A DNA stretch of 64,000 bases from Clavulina sp. PMI_390 (Eukaryota; Basidiomycota; Agaricomycetes; Cantharellales; Hydnaceae): NCBI GenBank assembly GCA_015039315.1, contig WIDE01000063.1:67326-131325 (forward strand), given 5' to 3'. The notes beneath the pieces are model-generated. The model had not been told where the DNA came from, did no database searches, and saw only the letters and a list, made by a program, of their open reading frames with translations. A program made the position numbers and the translations under genes. Of this stretch, positions 27,711-42,187 are shown one piece after another (the stretch's first letter is position 1; each line of letters starts with the position of its first letter).

Positions 27711-30700
27711 ATGTACGCGACCGGGAAAGAGAAGTCACAGGTTGAAGGTTCGTATCTACGCGACAGCTCGAGTTAGTTCATCAACTTGAGCGCGTTGTTG
27801 TTGCTAGATCCTGCGGATGTCGCGTTTGTGTCGTGGTTCAATAAGCTTCCAGAGGTTCGCATCGTCGCGTTTGTTAGCGGTTCAAAGCCTCATCTCGACA
27901 CTTTTCCCCCTTCCTATGTTATAGAGGCGAGAAGATACTGTTAGACTCTTCGAGCGACCTGTAAGTAACTCTGGGCCCGCCTCAATACACTGAGGCGCCT
28001 ATGGCTGCGTTGGTGCTGGAGGTTGATAACTGAACTTTAGGTGTGCTATAGGACTTTTACTCAGCGTATGGGCCAGATGCGATATACATCGCGAACCATG
28101 TCTACCGTACTCACAGCGTCATCAAACACATGGGCCGGAAGGACGCGCTCTTACCATATGTCACGTTATCTCAAGTTGTCGCCAAGAATTTCCTTCGCGA
28201 GGCTCTCACCGCCAAGCAGCTGAGGATAGAGATCTGGACCCCTGAACCAGGGGCTGGCAACAAGAAAACCTCCAAGTTTCAGTTATCCAAAAAGGTGAGC
28301 GGGGGCTGTCAGCTGGGATATTTCTGGGCTGCTCACATCTCGTGTTCTCTTTCAGGCATCCCCGGGGAACCTCCAAGATGTCGAAGATCTCTTGTTCTCT
28401 CATAGCGATATCACTTCTTCCCCCATTATCATGTCTATGCGCGTCTCTAAACGCGAGAACAACATTCTCGTCGGCTTGGCCTTCGCCGACGCTTCTGTCA
28501 GACAAATTGGAGTTTCGGAATTCCTCGACAACGACCTGTTCTCAAACGCGGAATCTTTGCTCATCCAGCTCGGGGTGAAAGAGTGCTTGATACCTAGTGA
28601 TCCTCGGGGAAAGGACGTCGAGTTGGCAAAGCTACGCGTGGTACTAGAACGGTGTAACGTTGTCATCACAGAGCGTAAACCATGTGAGTGTCATTTGTGC
28701 CCCATTTCCGGCCTGGTTGAGTTTCTGCTGAACTCGCTGAACTATTTGTTAGCGGAGTTCATGACGTCCAACGTGGAACAAGACCTGAATCGGCTACTGA
28801 AGACTGACACCCCCGTCGCTACCCTTCCCTCGTTCGATCTCAAGCTTGCGATGGCTGCAACCTCTGCCCTAATCTCGTACCTCTCCCTACTTGCCTCCGA
28901 TGCCGACGGCCAGTACACCTTACTCCAACACGACCTTTCTCAGTACATGCGACTGGACGCGTCAGCTCTTCGCGCCCTCAATCTTGTCCCTGGAGAGGGA
29001 AGCAGTGGAGTCGGAGCCGCAAAAACTACCACCCTTTTCGGCGTTCTCAACCATTGCAAAACTGCACAGGGAGTGCGACTGCTCGGACAGTGGCTAAAGC
29101 AGCCTTTGGTCAACCTCCACGAGATCAGTAAGCGAAGCTGCTCCCTACACTTGAACCAACTGCGCGAATCTTACGATCCTTCGCTCCCGCAGAGAAACGA
29201 CAAGATCTTGTCGAGGCTATGGTTAACGATTCAACTTTGCGAACTTCAGTTCGGGTATGTTGGCAAGAATTCTCTTATTTCATTAGGCTGACAGCAGTAT
29301 TCATAGGGGGATTTCCTCAAAACGATGCCAGATCTTCACCGCATCGCGAAGAGGTTTCAGCGTAACAAGGCTGGGCTTGAGGAGGTCGTGCGCGTCTATC
29401 AAGCCATAGTGAACGTGAGCTGGTTATAGCCAATCCCTCCATTAGATCTCATCGCTCATTTGTTGTCCTTCTCTCCAGCTGCAAGGTCTCACTGATAAAC
29501 TTGGAGAGGTTGAAGCGGGAGAAGACACTAAGGCATTGATGCGGGAACGATACATCGCTGAGCTTGAGGTAAGAGCACAGCCAAGGTAGCCCAGAGATCT
29601 TGACACGATTCCTTTCCCATTTTTTCTCCAGAACCATGCCACCACACTCCAGAAATACTCTGATATGGTCGAGGAGACGATCGATCTCGCTCAGCTGTCG
29701 TCACATACCTTCGTCATCAAGGCGGAGTATAATGAAGACCTTCAAGCGCTCACAGCAGAGCTTGGAGAGGCTCGGGATTCTCTGGACACCGAACATCGTA
29801 AGGCTGGTCGAGACCTAGGCCTCGAACTCGACAAAAAGCTTCACTTGGAGAACAACCCCACATACGGATACTGTCTTCGGATTGCTAAAGGAGTGAGTCC
29901 ATCTGTGCACTCCATTTTACTACTTACTGATATCCCGTTTAGGATGCAAAATCGATCCATGGGAACCGCAAATACATAGAGTTGAGCACTCAGAAGGGAG
30001 GAGTTTTCTTCACGACTGTGAACCTGAAGGAAATCGCCAATACCTACGCCGAGAAATCTGAGGCGTATCAGAAGGCTCAGAGCGGTCTAGTGAAGGAAAT
30101 CGTTGGTATTGCCTGTAAGTATATGGTGTGTGGTCGGCTTCGTCGTTCGTCAACTAAACACGCTTTTTGGGATCGGCTCAGCTACCTACACCCCTGTTCT
30201 AGAAAGCTTGGATGACCTTCTTGCAGATCTCGATGTTATTATTAGGTACGCAGTACTGCTTTTTTGTGTTGATCGCGCGTCCTAATTGCTTTCCTAGTCT
30301 CGCTGAAGCTGCCACCTCTGCTCCAATTCCTTACGTCAAGCCCACTGTACATGATAAAGGTGTGTAGTCTCCTATGGACGAACTTGGCACCATTTCTTAC
30401 ATCTTACTATTCAGGGGAAGGGAGCTTGGTCCTCAAGGAAGCTCGTCACCCCTGCCTTGAAGTCCAGGACGAAATCAGCTTCATCCCTAATGACGTATCT
30501 CTCGTCAAGGGCGAAAGCGAGTTCCAAATCATCACGGGTCCCAACATGGGCGGGAAGTCTACCTACATTCGTCAGGTATATATGGCCAACTTGCTGGTCA
30601 GTGGCATATTTGCTAATTCTTGATTGCAGATTGGAGTCATCGCTCTTATGGCACAAATTGGATCCTATGTTCCATGCACCGAGGCGGAGATGCCCGTTTT

Positions 30701-31715
30701 TGATTCTATTCTGTGCCGTGTTGGTGCTGGCGATAGTCAGCTTAAGGGGGTCTCCACGTTCATGGCCGAGATGTTGGAAACAGCCACTATCCTGAAAGTG
30801 AGTTTGCGTTAGGACGCTTTCATGACTATGACCTTAGTCCCTTTCATCCCGTAGTCTGCATCCAAGGACTCTCTTGTGATTATCGATGAGCTTGGACGGT
30901 AGGCCCCTTCGCTTGGTCCTGCATGTTCCCTCCTAAACTCTGTTACTCAGGGGTACCTCCACCTATGATGGTTTTGGTCTCGCCTGGGCTATTTCGGAGT
31001 AAGCATCTTATCGGGCCTTCCACCTTTCTTCCCAGTCGCTGATCGTTCTTTTCAGACACATTGCTACGGAGATCCACGCTTTCTGTCTCTTCGCTACGCA
31101 CTTCCATGAGTTAACAGCTCTGGCTCAAGAGGTGCCGCACGTCAAGAACCTGAATGTCGTCGCCCACGTCACTCCTCGAGATCCAAAAAGCAAGCAGTCT
31201 AAGCATGACCGTGATATCACACTGCTGTATAAGGTGGAGCCAGGTGCGCGTATAGCTGCCTCTTATTTGTGCCTTTCGCCTCATTCATACTGCTCTTGGT
31301 AAGGTGTTTGCGACCAAAGCTTTGGTATTCACGTTGCCGAGTTGGCAAACTTCCCTGAGAATGTGGTCAAGCTTGCCAAGCGCAAGGCGGACGAACTAGA
31401 AGATTTCGGAGGTATGTTACGCCCGTCGTCTTGTTCTAGCTACATCTGAAGACAATTGCATTGTGTTACGCAGAGGGCGAAGCACCTGCCCCCAAATTCT
31501 CCAAAACCGAAATGGATGATGGCGCCAAACTTGTCGAGGAATTCTTACAATCCTGGGCCGCCTCCCAATCTGTGCAGGACGGCGACGACGTTGTCATGGA
31601 AGACGCTGACTCTCAAGCTGCTCGCAAACTCAAAAGCCTCCAAACCTGTTACGCTCAATACAAGGACCGGCTCGAGGCGAATCCATGGTGCATGGATATC
31701 ATCGAATCCCTATAA
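27711..31715 (+). CDS. MSH2: DNA mismatch repair ATPase Msh2
   Basis: The common subunit of the MutS-alpha and MutS-beta mismatch recognition complexes. The first exons are short: [28 protein letters not shown], and a small exon around RLFERP. Then [19 protein letters not shown] begins the mismatch-recognition region, followed by the connector and lever domains ([20 protein letters not shown] with WLKQPL). The ATPase is complete: Walker [15 protein letters not shown] (about 30535-30575, next intron directly after), [15 protein letters not shown], Walker [18 protein letters not shown] split by an intron, and [10 protein letters not shown]. About 15 introns are needed. The C terminus ([16 protein letters not shown]) ends at 31715. 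It converges on VMS1, stops 195 bp apart. Confidence 0.95.
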
Positions 31716-31909
31716 TCTGTTACTTGCTACCCTCTCAACCTTCTTGAACGTTGCCATGCATGTTATGATCATCTTGGACGTATATTCTATCTTCTGTACT
31801 ATTACTATATGCCACTACACAACACGAGTGGCTATAATACAACATCGATTTGGCCCAACATGGGCAGCTTCCAAATATCAGATAAAAAAAATCTTACTGT
31901 CCAGAAAGT

Positions 31910-34493
31910 CTATTTGCCCTCACCCAGCGCCTTCAACCTCGCTTCTGCTGCTCGAGCTCTCCTTTCCCTTTCGACTTTCGCTCGCATCTCGGGAGACATC
32001 GCATCAAGGTTCGCCTGGTTTTGCTTGATCAGACCAGCCATTGGGCCACCCACTTTCTGCGGGCCCTTCCTCGTCGCATCCCGTTCTGCTCGCTCCCGCT
32101 CTAGGCGCTTGATCTCTATATCGGCCTGCATCTGAGCCTGCGTCTGGGCACTAGCCGTAGAAGCAGCCTGGGCATCAGCACGCTCCTTCATTCGGTCCTT
32201 CAGCCCCTTTCTCCGCACGCCCTTCTTGCGCGCTTCGGCCTCTTCCATCTCGGGTGTAAGAACGCTTGGCACACCTGCGCCTCCAGCTCCTGAACCGAGC
32301 CAGTCGAACCAGTCAGGATGCGCATGTGCCGCGCGACGGAAGATATTGCGGGCAGCGCGCGTGGGTGCCAAGTCGTACGCTCGCTTTTGGCCGCCGGGCG
32401 CGCGTGATTGGGCGATCGAATCATCTTGGTCGTCAGCGTCGTTGAATGTCGTAGTGGACTGAGAAGAGGATGAAGATGAGGGGAGGGGGATTGTGGGATC
32501 GGCGCGTTGCTCAAGGAGCCATGATATGACAGTTTCGTGTCCTGCTGCGCTAGCAACATGAAGGATTGTTGCACCTGCGCCTATGCCGTCTTCTTCCCGC
32601 ACTCCTACAGGTATCCGAGTGTCCACAAGGGGAGGAATGGAGGCTGTCGAGTCATCAGGTATCGAGACGGGGCCAAGTGGGCGTTCCCCCTTCGCTTCCA
32701 TAGCTGTAAGGTTCGTCCACAAAGTTTGTATGGATTCGAGTCGACCTTTCCGGACCATCTCAAGAATCTTCTGCCATCGCTCTCGCACAGCAAGCTCTTC
32801 CGGGCTCAGCTGTTCTCGCTCCTTCTTTTCCCGAGGAGCAGGCGCTGTGGGTTGAGGCGGAGCGACAGGCTTTCGCTTTTGGTAGAGCGCCAAGAAGGCT
32901 TCGTCCGCTGCGCGAAGTTCCTCTTCTGTAAGATGTGTGATTTTGACTCGGGTGAGCTCATGAAGGCAGCGAGAAAGTTCAGCGAGTGTCTGGAGGAATC
33001 ATTGGTTACGGGATCATAAGGTGGATTGCTAATTGTCTCGAAGGACTTACTGGTCTCCGAGTCTGGAAGGGGAACGTTCGTATACGAGCATCTCCTGTGA
33101 ACAATTTTATATTGTTGAGCGTCCAGATCATAACGAGAGGTCAGAAACCATGATGACGCAGACCTTTAGGCATTGGGGACTCATCGAAATCCATGAATAT
33201 TCTTCGGTTCGACACACTCGCTCGAATAAAGATCTTTTCGCATTCTTCCAGCTCATCTTTCCACTCTAGTAGAAGTGCTTGGATGTCCTATGTGTTAAAT
33301 ATTGAGTGGGTACTCGATACTGGCGTGGCGCAGGAGTAACACACCTCTCGGAGAGCCTGCTCGCCGTATCGACGCAGCTGGGCACCAGCACTCTTGGCCG
33401 GGCCTTTCGCATTATCATTGACAGATTGGGATCCACCCTGCTTTCTTCGCGCTAGCGATTATAACACGGATTAGTCATCCTGTATCTTCCCAGTCGCTGC
33501 AAAGGAGGATGGACGTACTGGTATATCGGTGGAACGTCTTGTGCGCAAGAATCTCAAGATCGGGAACCGCGTGGTTTGCCTTTCCCTTGCCTTTCTTTGC
33601 CGTGGGGACTGGTTCCGGAACGTCCGATGTCGTGGATGATCGTCCAGGCTTGGACACTCTCGCAATCATGCCGGCGAAATGACCACCAGCGACCATAAAT
33701 AGCGCCCAACGCCTTCCATGCTCTCCACCATCCTGAAGCTCTTGCAAGCTTCTGATGTTGTCCTCGTTCGAGTCAAAATATGGATCGGAGGAGGGGAAGA
33801 TTGCGATGTATGCGCCGAGCTGAGTGTTAGGGACAGAGGACGACTGGAACCACATGATAGGTGACCGAGGAATCTTGGGGCCGTAGTCTTCATCTTCATC
33901 TTCGGCACCTTTATTCTGTGGATTTTTCCGAATATTGTGTTTTTTGTGCTTTTGGATGAGGGTGGACACAGCGTCATCGGAGTCATCTTGTGAGTCGTCA
34001 TCGGAAGAGGATGCGGAGCCAGAGAGGGAGCCTTCTAGACCTTGATCGGGATCGAAAAGGTTACAACCAGTTATGTAGTGATGACTAAGGTTCCAAACTT
34101 ACCTTCGACAAGAGTCGCGAACTCGGTCTCCGTCACCGGTTTGGCATTGGAGTTGTTCAGTCGACGTTTGACATTATAACGATGCCAGTCGGAGCGGAAG
34201 TGGTTTCGCTGCTCATTGACGTCCGAGAAAGATACTCCAAGGCACAAGTTACAAGACAGAGCACCAGTGGCTCCCTCTGGATTTGAGTCAGCTTCTGATG
34301 GAGGTGCTTGTGGTGTGGGAGCTGGTTGTGGGTCAGGAAGAGATCGGCTGGGACCTGGTCGTATGCTCAGGTCTTCCAGTACCGTAGGAGGTAGCGCGAA
34401 TACGTGCAGAGGTTCTCGGAGAGCCATCTGCTGCAGTCGATGAAGAAAAGTTGGGAGATGGGGAGATGGATGTTTCGGTTCCGAGAAGCCCAT
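31910..34493 (-). CDS. VMS1: Vms1/ANKZF1-type peptidyl-tRNA cleaving factor (VLRF1, ankyrin, Cdc48-binding)
   Basis: Releases stalled nascent chains from 60S ribosomes in ribosome quality control and protects mitochondria. Exon 1 starts at 34493 and includes a C2H2-like zinc finger (CNLCLGVSFSDVNEQRNHF with H in SDWHR). The next exon opens the VLRF1 domain: IMWFQSSSVPNTQLGAYIAI, WALFMVAGGHFAGMI, KTFHRYT. The catalytic loop follows as RRKQGGSQSVNDNAKG, where the Gln of GGSQS is the key residue in yeast Vms1. Ankyrin repeats (GATILHVASAAGHETVISWL) and a coiled-coil tail come after. Near the C terminus RERRARAAEARLKALG fits the VIM motif that binds Cdc48/p97. Nothing important appears lost. Confidence 0.93.
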
Positions 34494-34704: not shown

Positions 34705-35435
34705 TTAAGCTGCCTGAACCCATTCCTTGACTTTCTGTATCCGTGCTCCCAACTCCTTCATCTCTCTACCCAATCGTTTGACGTTGGTAATCCCTGCGTC
34801 CTCCAATACATTCTCGAATGCTCGGCAACATTCCCACCACTCATCCATATTTTCCACGACTTTACGGGTTCCGTCATCAACCGCGAATTCTTCCACGGGC
34901 TCGAGGAGGATAATAAGTGTCCTCCGAGGGTCCCTATATACTGCCAGAGTGTCATCAGCTCCAGACCGATGACGGAGGGCTTGGTAGTTGCTGGCTGTTG
35001 AAGACACAGAACTCTCCGAATCTGAAGAGCCCGTGTCCGAAACGGGGCTAGGAGGCTGCGAATGTGCGGCGCTGGAACTCTGGTGCAAAGCATACGCCAT
35101 GGGGTCGAGGATACAACGGTCAGACACGTATGGCTTGGAGATAGTGGCCTCTCGCTTCAACTGTGCCTCCATTATTGCGCTCTGGAATGACAGCTATGAA
35201 TCATACAAATGTCAGGTTTTGCACTTATCGTTGATTATAGATATATATCACAAGCTACCTTGCCAACATCTTGCCGAGTGAAACCTTGCGTCGCCATGAC
35301 TGTCCTCGCAACTTCGGTCAGGAGACTTGGCTCACTGTTCTGCGCGAAAATGTCATTCCAGTCTGCTATTAGGGCGTTGGCTAATGTTGTCTTGCCGCAG
35401 GAGTGAGGGCCAGTTAAGATGACTCTTTCTAGCAT
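34705..35435 (-). CDS. small P-loop NTPase (AAA_28/NadR-kinase-like)
   Basis: Two exons joined by one intron. The N terminus MLERVILTGPHSCGKTTLAN holds a complete Walker A motif. It continues LLTEVARTVMATQGFTRQDV, then after the intron FQSAIMEAQLKREA and SDRCILDPMAYALH; the RCILDP strand is likely the second metal or phosphate site, as in P-loop kinases of this fold. A Ser-rich insert and LIILLEPVEEFAVDDGTRKV follow. The protein ends KVKEWVQAA. An in-frame ATG at 35537 would add 34 residues. It diverges from the RdRP gene across 107-209 bp. Substrate unknown; it could be a small-molecule kinase. Confidence 0.7.
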
Positions 35436-35644
35436 GACGGGGTTGTGTGGGTGATTGGCTAAAGTGAACGAGCGCTTCCCAAGTATTCTTATTCTATATC
35501 TCCCAAGCAGGTAGGTAAGCGTTAGCTTCTCCGTCATCTCGATTTGCTAATTCACCGCTTTTGGAGTCGAAATTTCACAGATTCACAACCGCGCGCCTAT
35601 CTCTCTGTTTCTGTTTACAGCTATCGCCACCGTCTATCACAGCG

Positions 35645-38600
35645 ATGGCAAAAATCAAAGTGAAAACGCTCAGTTTTGGCGATCAGAACTGGGACCTTGA
35701 CATTCGTCTGAATGACTTCAATCGGGCTCCGCGTAGGTCAACGGGCCCGTTTCTCCGAGCCCTGAGTATTGAGAAAAGGGAAAATGTCAAGCAGACCTCT
35801 GCGCAATCAGCGCCGGCCCCCGCTGCATCAGGTGCCGCTAACCGACCCGCTGAGGAACACCCTGATGATCCAATATTTGATCTCGTATTTCAGACCCAGG
35901 CTCTTCCGTTAAATCGTGCAATGTCGCCGACCTTGGCTCCAAGGCTAATCCATTTGAATATTGCTGCCTTGCGGTGGCCCAACAAGCGTCCGTCTGAAAC
36001 GGGCGATTACTTGGTCAAAATTCTAAAAGCTGGGATCAAAATCAATGGGAGTAGCTATTGGTTTTTTGGTCACAGCAACAGTCACCTCAGGGCCCGGTCA
36101 TGCATCCTCATGAGTGCCGATCGACCCGAGACGGTGCATAATTTTGTTCTTGGTATGGGCGACTTCCAAAGGATCAGGACTGCTGCAAAGTGTCAGTATC
36201 TCTTATGTTCTAACTGATACAATTCGGTACTGATATATCGTTCAGTCGCGAAGCGGATCGGACTTCTGTTCAGTACTGCTGATACTGGCTTGGATCTCCC
36301 AACTGAACTCACAGAGGACATACCTGACGTCATGAGCACGGACGGCAAGGTAGAGATGTCGGACGGTTGCGGTCTCATCTCGTATAATTTCTCTCGCGCA
36401 CTAGCCAAGAAGCTGGATATTCACTTCCAAGGTAATATCTACGTGCCCAATGTCTTTCAGCTTCGCTACCGTGGTTATAAGGTATGTTTTTTTCAGTTGG
36501 CATACAAATAAGTTTGATATATTCATACCATTTCACTAGGGGGTAGTGGCAACTTGCTTCGCTCTCGATGCTAAGAACAGCAAGCGCGAAGCTGGTTCGC
36601 CCAAGATCCAGGCCCAGTTTCGCTCATCAATGAGAAAGGTGGGAGGAATGTGTCCTTATATATCTCATTGCTCATTATTACCAATATCAGTTCAATGCTT
36701 CGGGAAGCACGGGCACACTATTCTCTGTCGTTGGATATTCCAAGCCATTCACGTTTGGGAGTCTCAAGTGAGTCGCATACCTAATGTATCTGGCACGGTC
36801 CCATCATGATTGATGATATGGTTGAGCTTAGTTCGGAACATGCGACCCTTCTCTCATCGCTTGGAATCTCGAATGAGGTTTTCCTCAAGAAGCAAGCAGA
36901 ACACTTTCAACACATCTTCAACGCTACCACGGACATTGAGAGCGCAATTCTGCTCCTATCCACCAAGTCTCTTGGTGATATCGTCTCTAGTGTGTCGCAC
37001 AGCGACGAGCCGCACACTCAGCGGCTTGAGTTAGTCCAGGAGCTTGCGATCAAAGGTCTTGAGGACCCAGAAGTGCAGCGTAAATTTCGGAGGCTCCAAG
37101 ACCACGAAATGAGCCTTGCGATTAACAAGCGAGGAGAAGAAAAGGTTCGCATTCTTATCCCTCAGTCAAGACGTTTGTATGGTGTATGCGACGAGACGGA
37201 CAGTCTGAGGGAGGGTACTGTGTTTATCCGCGTCCAAGTGCCTCGTAAGGTATAACCTCTATGATAGATGCTACGGTCAAGATGTTCTTATTCTTTCTGC
37301 ATTACTAGGGTCTAGTGACGCTCGTCAATGTTGACGTCATCATTGTGCGCAATCCGTGTCTCCACCCTGGAGATATCCTGAAACGCCGTGCGGTCGACCC
37401 TGGTCCTGATTATGGCAAGTTTCGAACAGTACGTCTCCCATGTCTGATATGGCTTTGCATTCATTTTACTCATGATGTTACCTGCAGGAATGTCTAGTTT
37501 TCTCTGGGAAGGGCCAGCGCCCTGATGCAAGCATGTCTTCAGGCGGTATGATGCCTCCTAAATTGACGTATGGCGCTATTACTGATACTTCTCTCGGCAA
37601 ATATTATTCAAGGTGACCTCGACGGTGATGAGGTATGAGACAAATCCATGATATGGTGATATCCCCGATTCACTTTGCCCAACAGTTTTTTGTATGCTGG
37701 GACAAGGATCTCATACCGGCAAATGTCTCAGAGGTATTTCAAGCCATAATACCGAGTGTTAGTACGTATGGGGGAGCCCACTGATGCGTTGCTTAGAGCT
37801 ATGACTACCCTGCACCAAAAGCGCGTCGAGAACCACCTGTGACGCAAGATCGACTTGTACGTCCTAACTTCACTGGAACTTCGTCACATGGCACCGGTAA
37901 TCCAGAACTCTCCTTAGATTGAGTATTTTGCACGATACAACACTGGATCTCTGGGCAAAGTGAAGAAGTATTACCTCGAGTGGCTCCGTGCCACTCCTAG
38001 AGGCGCTTTGGGCCCAGAATGTCAAGAGGTTAGGCCTGGAATACTTGTTTGGCTGTCTCTAATCTCATGAGTTCACTTACTCCTGCAGCTCAACGCTCTT
38101 CACTCGGATGCTGTCGATGGAGGCGCAGTCAGGATACCAGAACGTCTCCTCAATGTCCCCAAGAATCCCTCTGACGCTTTTATCCTCGATGTTCTTTCCC
38201 GTAAAGGGAAGGAGTTTAGTGAAGAGTGGCAGAATATACACGCTCGTCGACTTCCCGCGCGAGGCCCAATCCCTGGTAGCGCTGTCAACAACCCTGTCAC
38301 CGAGCGCGACCTTTTGACTTTGCTTTCCTCCGAGTCTCTTGCTCTTCCAGAGTACCTTCGGTTCCAGATAATGCTCTCGTACTGCCGACGGACTGGTGCT
38401 GATCCCTCCCAGTTCATGCCACACTTTCATTGGGGTGAACTGACGCCAAACGAGAAGTACGTTGTTCAGAGTATTGCCTTTTGGGATCCGAGGTATGACC
38501 CGGGCCCGGGCCTTTGGAACAGGTGAGCAAAGGATCTCTATCATCTCGCCATTGATCACTTATGACTTCGTTCAGCTTGGAGCGTTCCCCACTTCTCAAG

Positions 38601-41600
38601 GGCTATAATCTGAAAGCCCATCATCTTGACGGCCCGCTGAGCTTGCAGCGTCTCTATACCTCCGAGACAGACCGAATGCTTTACTTCTTCCGAAAGCTCA
38701 AAGTTGCCATTGACTATTTCCATCGTTTTCTTATCGTGATGAAGGTATAGTATGGCATATAGGCCTTGTGACGAAATCCTAACCGCTTCTATTGGCAGGT
38801 CAACTCGAGATTCACGGTGATTATCTACAAATGCACCCCAATTGTGTGGGGCGAGGAATCCCTGGTCGGGAACGGCGTTCGCATCATGGCACTTACCAAT
38901 GCTGAAGGCCGACATGGCTCCACCGCTGTAGCCACCTCTTTCTTGCTGACGGGGCCTCGAATATTCCAGCTTTACTCTAAGGATCTCAGGGACACCTTTG
39001 TTTTTGTCAACATGGTGACAGTGAAAGGAGTTGAAACAGTTCAGACAAGCATTGCACTACAAAAGATTGATAGCATTATTCAGGTAAGACTCTCTCCACA
39101 CAATAGCTTCATTGAGCCGTAACATCCTTGCCATTTCTGAACTTAGCGTCATGTTGGTGCTGTCAGACGTGAAGATGTACAAGAGATTGAAATTCATGTT
39201 GTATCTAACCGCGATAGGGTGGCAAGCCAACAACTGGATCTTGCATTCAATTTGTGAGTGGCCCAATTCTGAACATACAATTGCTAATTGCTCACAATCT
39301 GATTCGAGTATTCCTAAGCGTCGGAACTGAAGAGATTATTCGTCGAATATCGCGAGATCCCAAGGTATCTGTGAAAGATTCTCTTCAACGTGTGGAGTGG
39401 TCAACTTTCCCCACTCATTGGAAGGAGATCGTGCTCGGTGCCAAATGGCAATTCCTAGATGGCCTTGAAGAGAAAGATGTCGGGGATATTGTTCAATTCT
39501 GCGTCTCTCATCACGCAGCCCATCGTGTAATCCCCATCGTCGACCACCTGCTGGATCAGCGGGGTGTGGAGTATGCTCCTGTTGCCGTGGCTCTCATGAG
39601 CGACTATGCCCCGCTGTTATCTCTACTGCTGAGCAATCGGCTCCACGTATCTCCAACTAAACCGGATGCAGAGCTTCTTCGCCAATCGGGGTTCCCTCTA
39701 TTGCAATCACTAGTGAGTATTGCAAACTTTGCAGGGGAGGCAACGGTATGGATTATCCAGGATCGATTCTTGGGTATTATCGAGTCCTTGCATCCAAAAG
39801 ATATACTCGAGCTGATGTGGAGAGCATCCTTCTCTGTCCACGCCCCTCTTCTATCCCACCTCATAATCCAAGTTCTCCGAGAGATGAAGACGGGCGATCA
39901 TTCTGGCGGAGTTCTGTCACATGCTTTAAAGCTTGGCGCTGCGGTATGCATTGAGTATTCCGGGCAACTGGCAGACCAACTTCGTCCTAGTAGCTCCAAT
40001 ATTCAAGGCCTTCCTCGTGCCAAGTCCAAGGAGCTTCTCATTAGCCCGAAAGTTGACGAGGACTGGCAAATCTCGTTTGACTTTCGCAAAGATGCAGATC
40101 TCCGCCCCCGTTCAGGAGATCATCTTCGTCTGCGTGATGCTATCACGGACTCCAAAGTCGAAGTGGATATTATAGACTGCATTGTGACAAAGTCCTACGA
40201 TGGGAATGCGACCTTGCAGTCATACCATGTTCCCCCGCCTCAAATGGAGGACAGATCATGGAGAGTATATGTCACTGGACCAACGGCTACCGTCAAGGCC
40301 GAGATGGATGCTGTAGCAAAGATGACTGATCTCACAGAGGCTCCGATTGATCTAACTACAATTATTTGTGGAGGCATCCCCGATCCTGGGGGGTCGCCTC
40401 TACTCGTCTTAGATCCCCCACCTGACGATCTGAAGCTAAATGATAGGTGCGCGCCAATTTCATCCTCCGCGTTGACCATTGTTCTTACGTGTATCCAGCC
40501 AAAAGAATGCGGTTGCTGCTGTTAGGGACCATCGTTTGACACTTATATGGGGGTGCGGATTCAATTTCCTATCCCCGTATCGTCAAATAGATTCTAATTG
40601 CTCTTTGTCTTAGACCTCCAGGAACTGGGTGAGCTCCACTTTATCCTTTGATCAGAAGCATGGCCGATCAAACGATGTCTTGAGCGACATAGGAAAACAT
40701 CAGTAGTGGCCAATATCCTCTTCTACCTACTTCACGTCCTTGATGAGGAGGATAGGATTCTTCTCACTGCTTCGACGAATAATGCTGTTGATAATGTCCT
40801 TGAACGTCTCCTCACGTTCCCTGACATTGACTCGAGCAAGCTGATTGTGAGCTTCGGTTGCCTTTTTGGCAAGCAAGAAAAGCGCTAACCCCTTTCTCCG
40901 TGATCATCGTAGCGAGCTGCGACAGATGAAAGCAAAGTGTCTCAAAAGCTTCACCACTTGACCGTATCAGCAATGGAGTACGACACCCCTCGCGGCAGAG
41001 AGGAGGCAAAGAAGGCACAGAAGCGGATTGAGGCCGCACGGATCGTATTTACTACTTGTGGTTCGTTCTTTCATCGCTCAGTCCGCGATATCTGATGCGT
41101 AGCGCGTTGAATATGTAGCTGGGTCTGGACTTGGACTGGTCAGGAAGATGAATTTTGAGGTAGCGGTAGTGGATGAGGCCTCCCGTAAATCGTGGCGGCC
41201 ATCAATCGTTCTACAATGGCTAATGCACATGTTGTAGAAATCGTGGAGTCTGTCGCTCTCATTCCACTCATGAAAGGCGCCAAGAGAGCTGTGCTAGTAG
41301 GGGACCAGTAAGTGCGCCGTCAGATCTCATCTTTTCACAGTCAAGCAAAGCAATGACTTAGTGAATCACAGTGTACAGCTTCGACCGAACGTCACGCCGG
41401 CGGCTGCGGAGCTACAGCATGACCGCTCGTTGTTTGAAAGATTATATACCGAGTATACAGGCCCCGAGGTGGGGAAGCGTATGCTGGAGGTTAGCATACG
41501 CATTAGCTTTTCAGCGAGGTAATGCTGATATCAAGGCAGGTTCAATACCGATCCGGAGCAGAGCTAGCCAATTTTGCATCGCAGCGCTTTTACGAAGGTC

Positions 41601-42187
41601 GATTGAGCGCTGGCCTTCTGCCCTCGGATCGCGTACTTCACCCAAGCGCTTTCCCCTGGCCTATGACTCGGAGGAACCGGGTTCGAGCCCAACCTTATCC
41701 TTGTGTGTTTGTGCAATGCGACTCTGAAGAATCATATGGTGGTCAGTCGAAGCACAACGTTGGTCAAACCAAGTTGGTGAGGGCGATTGTCCAAAAACTG
41801 CAATCACCAGCTGCCGCAGGAGGGATTCCACCGCTGGCGTCCTTTGCGCTTCTTACGCCGTACACAAAGATGAGAACAGCTCTGGAGGCTCTTCATCTTC
41901 CAAACTCATCTGCAATCACAATTGACGGTGCACAAGGCCGAGAGTATGACTATGTTGTCTTTGCCACGGTGCGCTGCAATATCGAGCGCGAAATTGGTTT
42001 TTTGAAGGATGAGCGTCGTCTCAATGTCGCCCTGACAAGAGCGCGATATGGCCGAATCATTGTTGGTGATAGGGCGACCTTGATTGGAGCGGAGGATGGT
42101 GGAGAAGTCTGGAGAGCTGCCTTGGATGATTGTGAAGAGTTGGACGCAAGTTTATTCATTCCTCCCGAAGTCACTGTCGCTTCTTGA
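35645..42187 (+). CDS. RNA-dependent RNA polymerase fused to UPF1-like SF1 helicase
   Basis: Predicted single protein of roughly 1,800 residues. The N-terminal half is a cellular QDE-1/Rdp1-type RdRP: FAKRIGLLFSTADTGLDLP, GLISYNFSRALAKKL, FQLRYRGYKGVVATCF, VRILIPQSRRLYGVCDE, NVDVIIVRNPCLHPGD, and the catalytic SGGDLDGDE (37612-37632, split by introns). IEYFARYNTGSLGKVKKYYL and LNALHSDAVDGGAVRIPERL close the polymerase. The exons continue in frame (KGYNLKAHHLDGPLSLQRLY) through an all-alpha-looking linker (NFVGTEEIIRRISRD on). The helicase then begins RSQKNAVAAVRDHRLTLIWG and has GPPGTGKT across a 15-nt exon (40614-40628), TASTNNAVDNVLERL, VVDEASQ, LVGDHVQLRP, VQYRSGAEL, IDGAQGREYDYV and LNVALTRAR. 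Polymerase and helicase are intact. Two adjacent genes remain possible but no stop or promoter separates them. Likely role: RNA silencing. Confidence 0.85.

Follow-up and report, generated by a model that had tools for sequence, protein, structure and literature searches.

A predicted RNA-dependent RNA polymerase-helicase fusion in Clavulina sp. PMI_390 and its relatives in fungi, algae and animals

Introduction

The locus described here raises the question of whether an RNA-dependent RNA polymerase (RdRP) and a UPF1-like helicase that follow one another on the same strand are made as one protein, and what such a protein would do. The window, that is, the whole stretch of DNA that was analysed, comprises 64,000 nucleotides of a contig of Clavulina sp. 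PMI_390, and positions refer to it. A sequence-only reading had described the locus as a natural single-chain version of the Rdp1 and Hrr1 proteins of Schizosaccharomyces pombe, which would give direct evidence that polymerase and helicase work in series on the same RNA.

The predicted gene has an open spliced frame, the domain order described below and intact motifs, and the analysis shows the same architecture in proteins of fungi, volvocine algae and some animals. In our judgement it is likely that the gene encodes a single chain of RdRP, TLDc-like module, helical segment and UPF1-like SF1B helicase, that this chain is the Clavulina member of the Fgrdrp5-type family, and that its RdRP would feed Dicer; delivery of the polymerase by the motor is proposed with less than even confidence.

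Results

Gene model and reading frame

The features that define the gene model are the following.

35645..42187, + strand: RdRP-helicase fusion gene, 24 exons, 1,729 aa (spliced translation, GT-AG introns, relatives with the same order)
39319..40446, + strand: exon 16, the linking exon, coding frame without a stop
40447..40498, + strand: intron 16, read through by the public model P0001
40614..40628, + strand: exon 18, 15 nt, within the ATP-binding loop

The 24 exons splice into a single frame without an internal stop, with a coding length of 5,190 nt including the stop codon, so that the protein is shorter than the 1,800 residues given earlier. All 23 introns are of the GT-AG type and measure 50-67 nt each. 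The junctions were placed by hand with the family motifs in mind, and were later compared with the family consensus; they replaced a gene-finder model of 1,690 aa that had several wrong junctions, including near Walker A.

The coding frame of exon 16 is open for 375 codons, for which the chance is about 4e-8 given the base composition of the exon itself, and the remaining two frames contain 15 and 19 stops. The sequence-only reading had placed this exon at 39318-40446; the absence of a stop held, whereas the start had to be moved by one base. RdRP and UPF1-like helicase are thus fused in one predicted gene with one frame throughout, as had been proposed, and we regard the existence of a gene for this fusion, together with its family assignment, as close to certain.

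Domains and conserved motifs

Along the translated protein, the following regions were distinguished.

36014..38121, + strand: RdRP domain PF05183, aa 124-609 (Pfam)
38506..39230, + strand: TLDc-like module, aa 738-922
39231..39796, + strand: linker, mostly alpha-helical, aa 923-1089 (AF2 model of exon 16)
39797..40333, + strand: helicase stalk and domain 1B, about aa 1090-1268
40433..42073, + strand: SF1B helicase motor, aa 1302-1692, PF13086 and PF13087 (Pfam, invariant columns)

The order is therefore RdRP, TLDc-like module, helices and a complete SF1B helicase. The Pfam search found PF05183 followed by PF13086/PF13087 in one chain, at 340.6 bits for the RdRP, 144 for AAA_11 and 129 for AAA_12, the last two covering the C-terminal third. 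The motifs from which both halves had been called intact were all located in the translation: SGGDLDGDE of the polymerase at aa 517, coded at nt 37539-37632 with introns interrupting it, and, in the helicase, GPPGTGKT at 1324, DEAS (as DEASQ) at 1448, GDHVQLRP at 1473 and ALTRAR (as NVALTRAR) at 1676. The conserved helicase motifs, which we take to be I, II, III, V and VI, are all intact. Of the near-invariant columns, defined as those with one residue in at least 97% of the fused proteins, the window protein has the consensus residue at 47 of 49 in the RdRP core, the exceptions being 388 and 500, and at all 54 in the helicase core. Judged by these motifs, there is no sign that either half is inactive.

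The AF2 model of exon 16 had a mean pLDDT of 85.7. As its global matches in Foldseek were poor, the assignment of stalk and 1B rests on a separate comparison of the model, in which the stalk and the 1B barrel were found ahead of motif I, with the caveat that helical parts score high by chance in such comparisons.

Spread of the fusion and its trees

The occurrence of the same domain order elsewhere was followed in 236 proteins from protein searches, which took the best 120 of 290, all 57 and the best 120 of 904 matches and scored the candidates with most shared words. Both cores, at more than 200 bits each, were present in 173 of 237 proteins (the 236 database matches plus the window protein), and none had them in reverse order; because family members had gone into the search profiles, this figure counts presence and not independence. 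Among the remaining 64, ten with the middle module are cut or partial models of the fusion family, and 54 are other RdRPs and helicases. The named sources of the fused proteins are Basidiomycota, Ascomycota, Glomeromycotina, volvocine algae (Gonium, Pleodorina, Volvox, Edaphochlamys and Chlamydomonas schloesseri), three lancelets and a soft coral, so that the order first noticed in Clavulina recurs in fungi and in some algae and animals. The lancelet proteins P0170, P0173 and P0187 each have RdRP core, middle module and helicase core, and P0227 of the laboratory strain Coprinopsis cinerea AmutBmut is built in the same way.

The trees with animals took 30 of the 173 fused proteins. In the RdRP tree, these 30 rows formed one clade (99/98) against 10 other RdRPs. 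The fused helicases formed one clade with 72/26 in one tree, and this clade was missing from the best tree of another, which did not reject it (p-AU 0.21). The former helicase tree left out L018-L020, L023-L025, P111, P113, P120 and P138, and the later tests additionally L026, P112 and two UPF1 rows, so the helicase trees sample a part of the helicases of the Clavulina genome. The fungal fused RdRPs as one clade were not rejected (p-AU 0.10), and the best tree of another run grouped Glomeromycotina with the algae. Several fusion events, or transfer between lineages, would be the alternative to a single origin; on the sequences compared, one ancient fusion event is the simplest reading, favoured by the RdRP tree and by the middle module common to all, with the helicase tree favouring neither view.

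A fused protein from an insect record, P0180 of Bradysia odoriphaga, stood among Basidiomycota-type rows in the RdRP tree, which would reflect either fungal contamination or horizontal transfer.

In the Clavulina assembly, RdRP matches were found at ten loci after grouping of exon matches, and the window locus alone adjoins an AAA_12 match. Further RdRP matches are clustered, with three in a row at C269:668886-681679, an opposed pair at C99:12757-22518 and a tandem pair at C247:719353-725780. Contigs C117 and C200 share one helicase fragment, that is, a duplicated or uncollapsed stretch.

The middle module

A conserved module lies between the RdRP and helicase cores in all 173 fused proteins (E below 1e-3). 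A profile of it made from 12 Dikarya rows, window protein included, gave 77-96 bits with each of six algal proteins, and stand-alone RdRPs and helicases scored -0.5 bits at most with it. The helical linker behaves differently, as a Dikarya profile of it fails to reach the algal proteins (1.1 bits or less), and hhalign of fungal against algal linkers gave 78 columns at 24% probability.

When the middle module was tested for the TLDc fold, the outcome was positive. Pfam TLD reached 19.1 bits in one of 12 middle-module segments, below the cut-off of 24.5; it was absent from whole-protein Pfam scans of the window protein and 13 other fused proteins (limits of E 1, and 0.01 in one scan), and TLDc was not found by a profile search of the module against PDB sequences. 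In a viral structure library, the matches included two phage RdRPs, with E of at most 0.001, and a TLD protein of a Pandoravirus, with 1.3e-3.

Truncated public models at the ATP-binding loop

The top database match of the fusion is P0001, the RdRP of Clavulina sp. PMI_390 as publicly annotated (1,313 aa, 98% identical over 75%). Its C-terminus is a read-through of intron 16 and agrees with the frame that stays open to 40525. When intron 16 is spliced out, the string LNDSQKNAV...LIWGPPGTGKT is obtained, in agreement with the family consensus. Walker A is distributed over nt 40551-40699, and the exons directly after intron 16, of 54 nt and 15 nt, bear most of the ATP-binding loop. P0001 ends just ahead of GPPG, and P0076, P0081 and P0082 end just past it (after LIWGPPG), the four coming from four different Agaricomycetes.

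The coincidence of these ends in different species would fit a mechanism in which the introns at the ATP-binding loop are retained in a regulated way, so that an RdRP-only isoform would be made beside the full chain. We consider this rather unlikely, as very short exons are a frequent cause of failure of gene predictors. A second alternative, that the RdRP ends near 40525 and a separate gene or transcript encodes the helicase, could invoke the end of P0001 and the Met codons within exon 16 that could act as starts. It is highly improbable, since the conserved sequence leading into Walker A is restored once intron 16 is spliced out, exon 16 itself encodes stalk and 1B of the helicase, the 173 proteins span both cores in a single chain, and the break falls at very short exons. 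The break of P0001 is accordingly read as an annotation failure in a single-chain fusion gene, and such broken models show how the helicase half of the fusion can go unnoticed.

Identity of the helicase half

Against solved structures, the helicase half scored 181 bits with yeast UPF1/NAM7, 136 with SMUBP2, 115 with SEN1 and 77 with ZNFX1, so the description as UPF1-like was borne out. Another Clavulina gene (C247:354125-355757) gave the reverse pattern, with 201 bits for ZNFX1 and 88 for UPF1. Around that ZNFX1/Hrr1-type gene (L021, C247:351500-357500), an NFX1-like cysteine-rich stretch after it and an apparent further ATPase motif were seen by eye.

ZNFX-1 and S. pombe Hrr1 have been termed orthologues (PMC9276528), and Hrr1 has been grouped with SAD-3 and RnhA (PMC5384783). 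The equation of the fusion with a natural Rdp1-Hrr1, judged here without the S. pombe Rdp1 or Hrr1 sequence, has in its favour that each is a pair of RdRP and SF1 helicase tied to RNAi. The trees leave room for it: with all nested rows included, a clade of fused helicases plus the ZNFX1-type gene was missing from the best trees and was unrejected (p-AU 0.41 and 0.29), as was one of Dikarya-type fused helicases plus that gene (p-AU 0.13), the ZNFX1/Hrr1 type being represented by a single row on a long branch. A p-AU of 0.024 against this grouping was set aside, as it came from a test without two Dikarya-nested rows (fus_ena26 and Bradysia), with which the value is 0.13. It is the scores, and not the trees, that disfavour the equation, together with the separate ZNFX1/Hrr1-type gene with its reverse scores; moreover, the RdRP half forms a clade of its own, and Fgrdrp5 branches apart from QDE-1, SAD-1 and RRP-3 (PMC11237814). 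We therefore hold a single-chain Rdp1-Hrr1 to be very unlikely, and the fused helicase is probably not Hrr1.

Uniting the Dikarya-type fused helicases with only UPF1 in one clade was rejected (p-AU 0.008), so the fused helicase is not UPF1 itself; as far as sequence comparison goes, it forms a separate, UPF1-like branch. Searches of the Clavulina assembly with two fungal UPF1 proteins (P0102 and P0103) found no true UPF1; the top match, at 82 bits, was a SEN1-type gene on C31, and the missing UPF1 may reflect loss, an assembly gap or a limit of the search. That the helicase half replaces UPF1 in Clavulina, as this missing match might suggest, is scarcely credible, as UPF1 may have been missed by assembly or search, the UPF1 CH domain (PF09416) and PF18141 were not found in the Pfam scan of the fusion protein, and the joint clade was rejected.

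Discussion

Published relatives

Fgrdrp5 of Fusarium graminearum (FGSG_09076) has been published as an RdRP with DEXDc and AAA domains on a separate branch (PMC11237814). Like the Clavulina fusion, it is a single chain with the RdRP ahead of DEXDc and AAA (PF13087) (P0036, 1,721 aa), and the two share middle module, linker and RdRP clade; unlike it, Fgrdrp5 is an ascomycete protein with known deletion phenotypes. Its deletion lowered antisense exonic sRNA from 27.3% to 18.91%, 5'-U reads of 21-25 nt by about 32%, and ascospore discharge to 47.6% (PMC11237814). By analogy, this phenotype supports a role of the fusion in siRNA production; as the deletion takes out the whole protein, the roles of the two halves are not separated by it. 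The available text of PMC11237814 holds no mention of a TLDc-like module or a kinase partner for Fgrdrp5.

The lancelet protein BL02069 of Branchiostoma lanceolatum, described as an RdRP plus AAA_12 (PMC6396948, Fig. 1 legend), resembles the fusion in these two domains and differs in being from an animal; for the lancelet, the authors report no convincing evidence for RdRP activity (PMC6396948). As Fgrdrp5 and the lancelet RdRP plus AAA_12 were already in print, the Clavulina gene is a further case of a known architecture. The S. pombe RDRC also pairs an RdRP with an SF1 helicase (PMC9276528), but its Rdp1, Hrr1 and Cid12 are separate proteins, and Hrr1 is of the ZNFX1 type whereas the fusion helicase scores closer to UPF1. 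The RDRs with an N-terminal DEAD-box helicase of oomycetes, Dictyostelium, Hydra and Nematostella (PMC4791657) likewise have helicase and RdRP in one chain, although the helicase is of another type and is placed before the RdRP. In Volvox carteri, one RdRP has been reported, with the helicase unmentioned in the main text (PMC5093975). For the wide spread of the family, the TLDc-like module and the AAA_28 link described below, no report was found in the openly licensed PMC papers searched, although such reports may exist.

Proposed mechanism

The RdRP-helicase fusion as such is no direct evidence of two activities working in series, contrary to what the sequence-only reading had drawn from it. 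UPF1-type motors load on 5' single strands and travel 5' to 3', and the template of an RdRP is read from 3' to 5'. As these polarities are opposed on one template, delivery would be the most economical coupling. The motor would move on the target RNA as far as the 3' end, clearing off proteins and structure en route, and the attached polymerase would thereby be brought to its start site, where it would convert single-stranded into double-stranded RNA for Dicer; the TLDc-like module could serve as a docking platform. MOV10, like its prototype UPF1, unwinds duplexes bearing a 5' single-stranded overhang (PMC12305709). Delivery of the polymerase to the 3' end by the motor is the coupling that we favour, though with less than even confidence. 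With polymerase and motor in one chain, the way in which RdRPs find and clear their templates becomes testable with point mutations in a single gene.

The AAA_28 neighbour

A second gene lies head-to-head with the fusion.

34705..35435, - strand: AAA_28 P-loop gene, 221 aa, exons 35435-35259 and 35193-34705 (gene model, Pfam)
35436..35644, no strand: gap of 209 bp between the divergent start codons (position)

The gap is a possible shared promoter. The neighbour scored 77.1 bits with Pfam AAA_28, against a cut-off of 27, and no other AAA_28 gene was detected in the 39.4-Mb assembly, where the two exon matches obtained both fell here (29 of 32 candidates scored). The chance of such adjacency is about 2 in 10,000, assuming about 10,000 genes or more and with the question posed after the link was seen.

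Among the matches listed, AAA_28 was fused N-terminally to the same RdRP-helicase in seven ENA proteins by Pfam annotation, four of which were rescanned. In P0206, the P-loop is absent at the annotated start. The related proteins P0230, P0201, P0213 and P0234 are without AAA_28, possibly owing to start sites set too far downstream in their models. A profile of the N-terminal AAA_28 extension matched the Clavulina neighbour with E 3.3e-11 among 238 sequences, which shows that both belong to the same family and gives no sign of a special bond.

We suggest, with less than even confidence, an ancient eukaryotic RNA-copying machine, so far undescribed as a family, in which RdRP, TLDc-like platform and UPF1-like motor form one chain. 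It would predate the divergence of fungi, animals and green algae and have the AAA_28 kinase as a dedicated partner. Copying may be assisted by the kinase through phosphorylation of RNA ends or of nucleotides. The occurrence of the fusion in algae and animals, its TLDc-like module and the AAA_28 gene linked to it point to a class of cellular RdRP that has escaped notice.

Three of the ENA fused proteins (P0206, P0207 and P0222) had C-terminal CCCH zinc-finger matches, weak in P0206. Judged by eye, the neighbouring stretch of the window at 31910-34493 (- strand) is presumably VMS1/ANKZF1-like, and that at 30000-31716 (+ strand) resembles MSH2.
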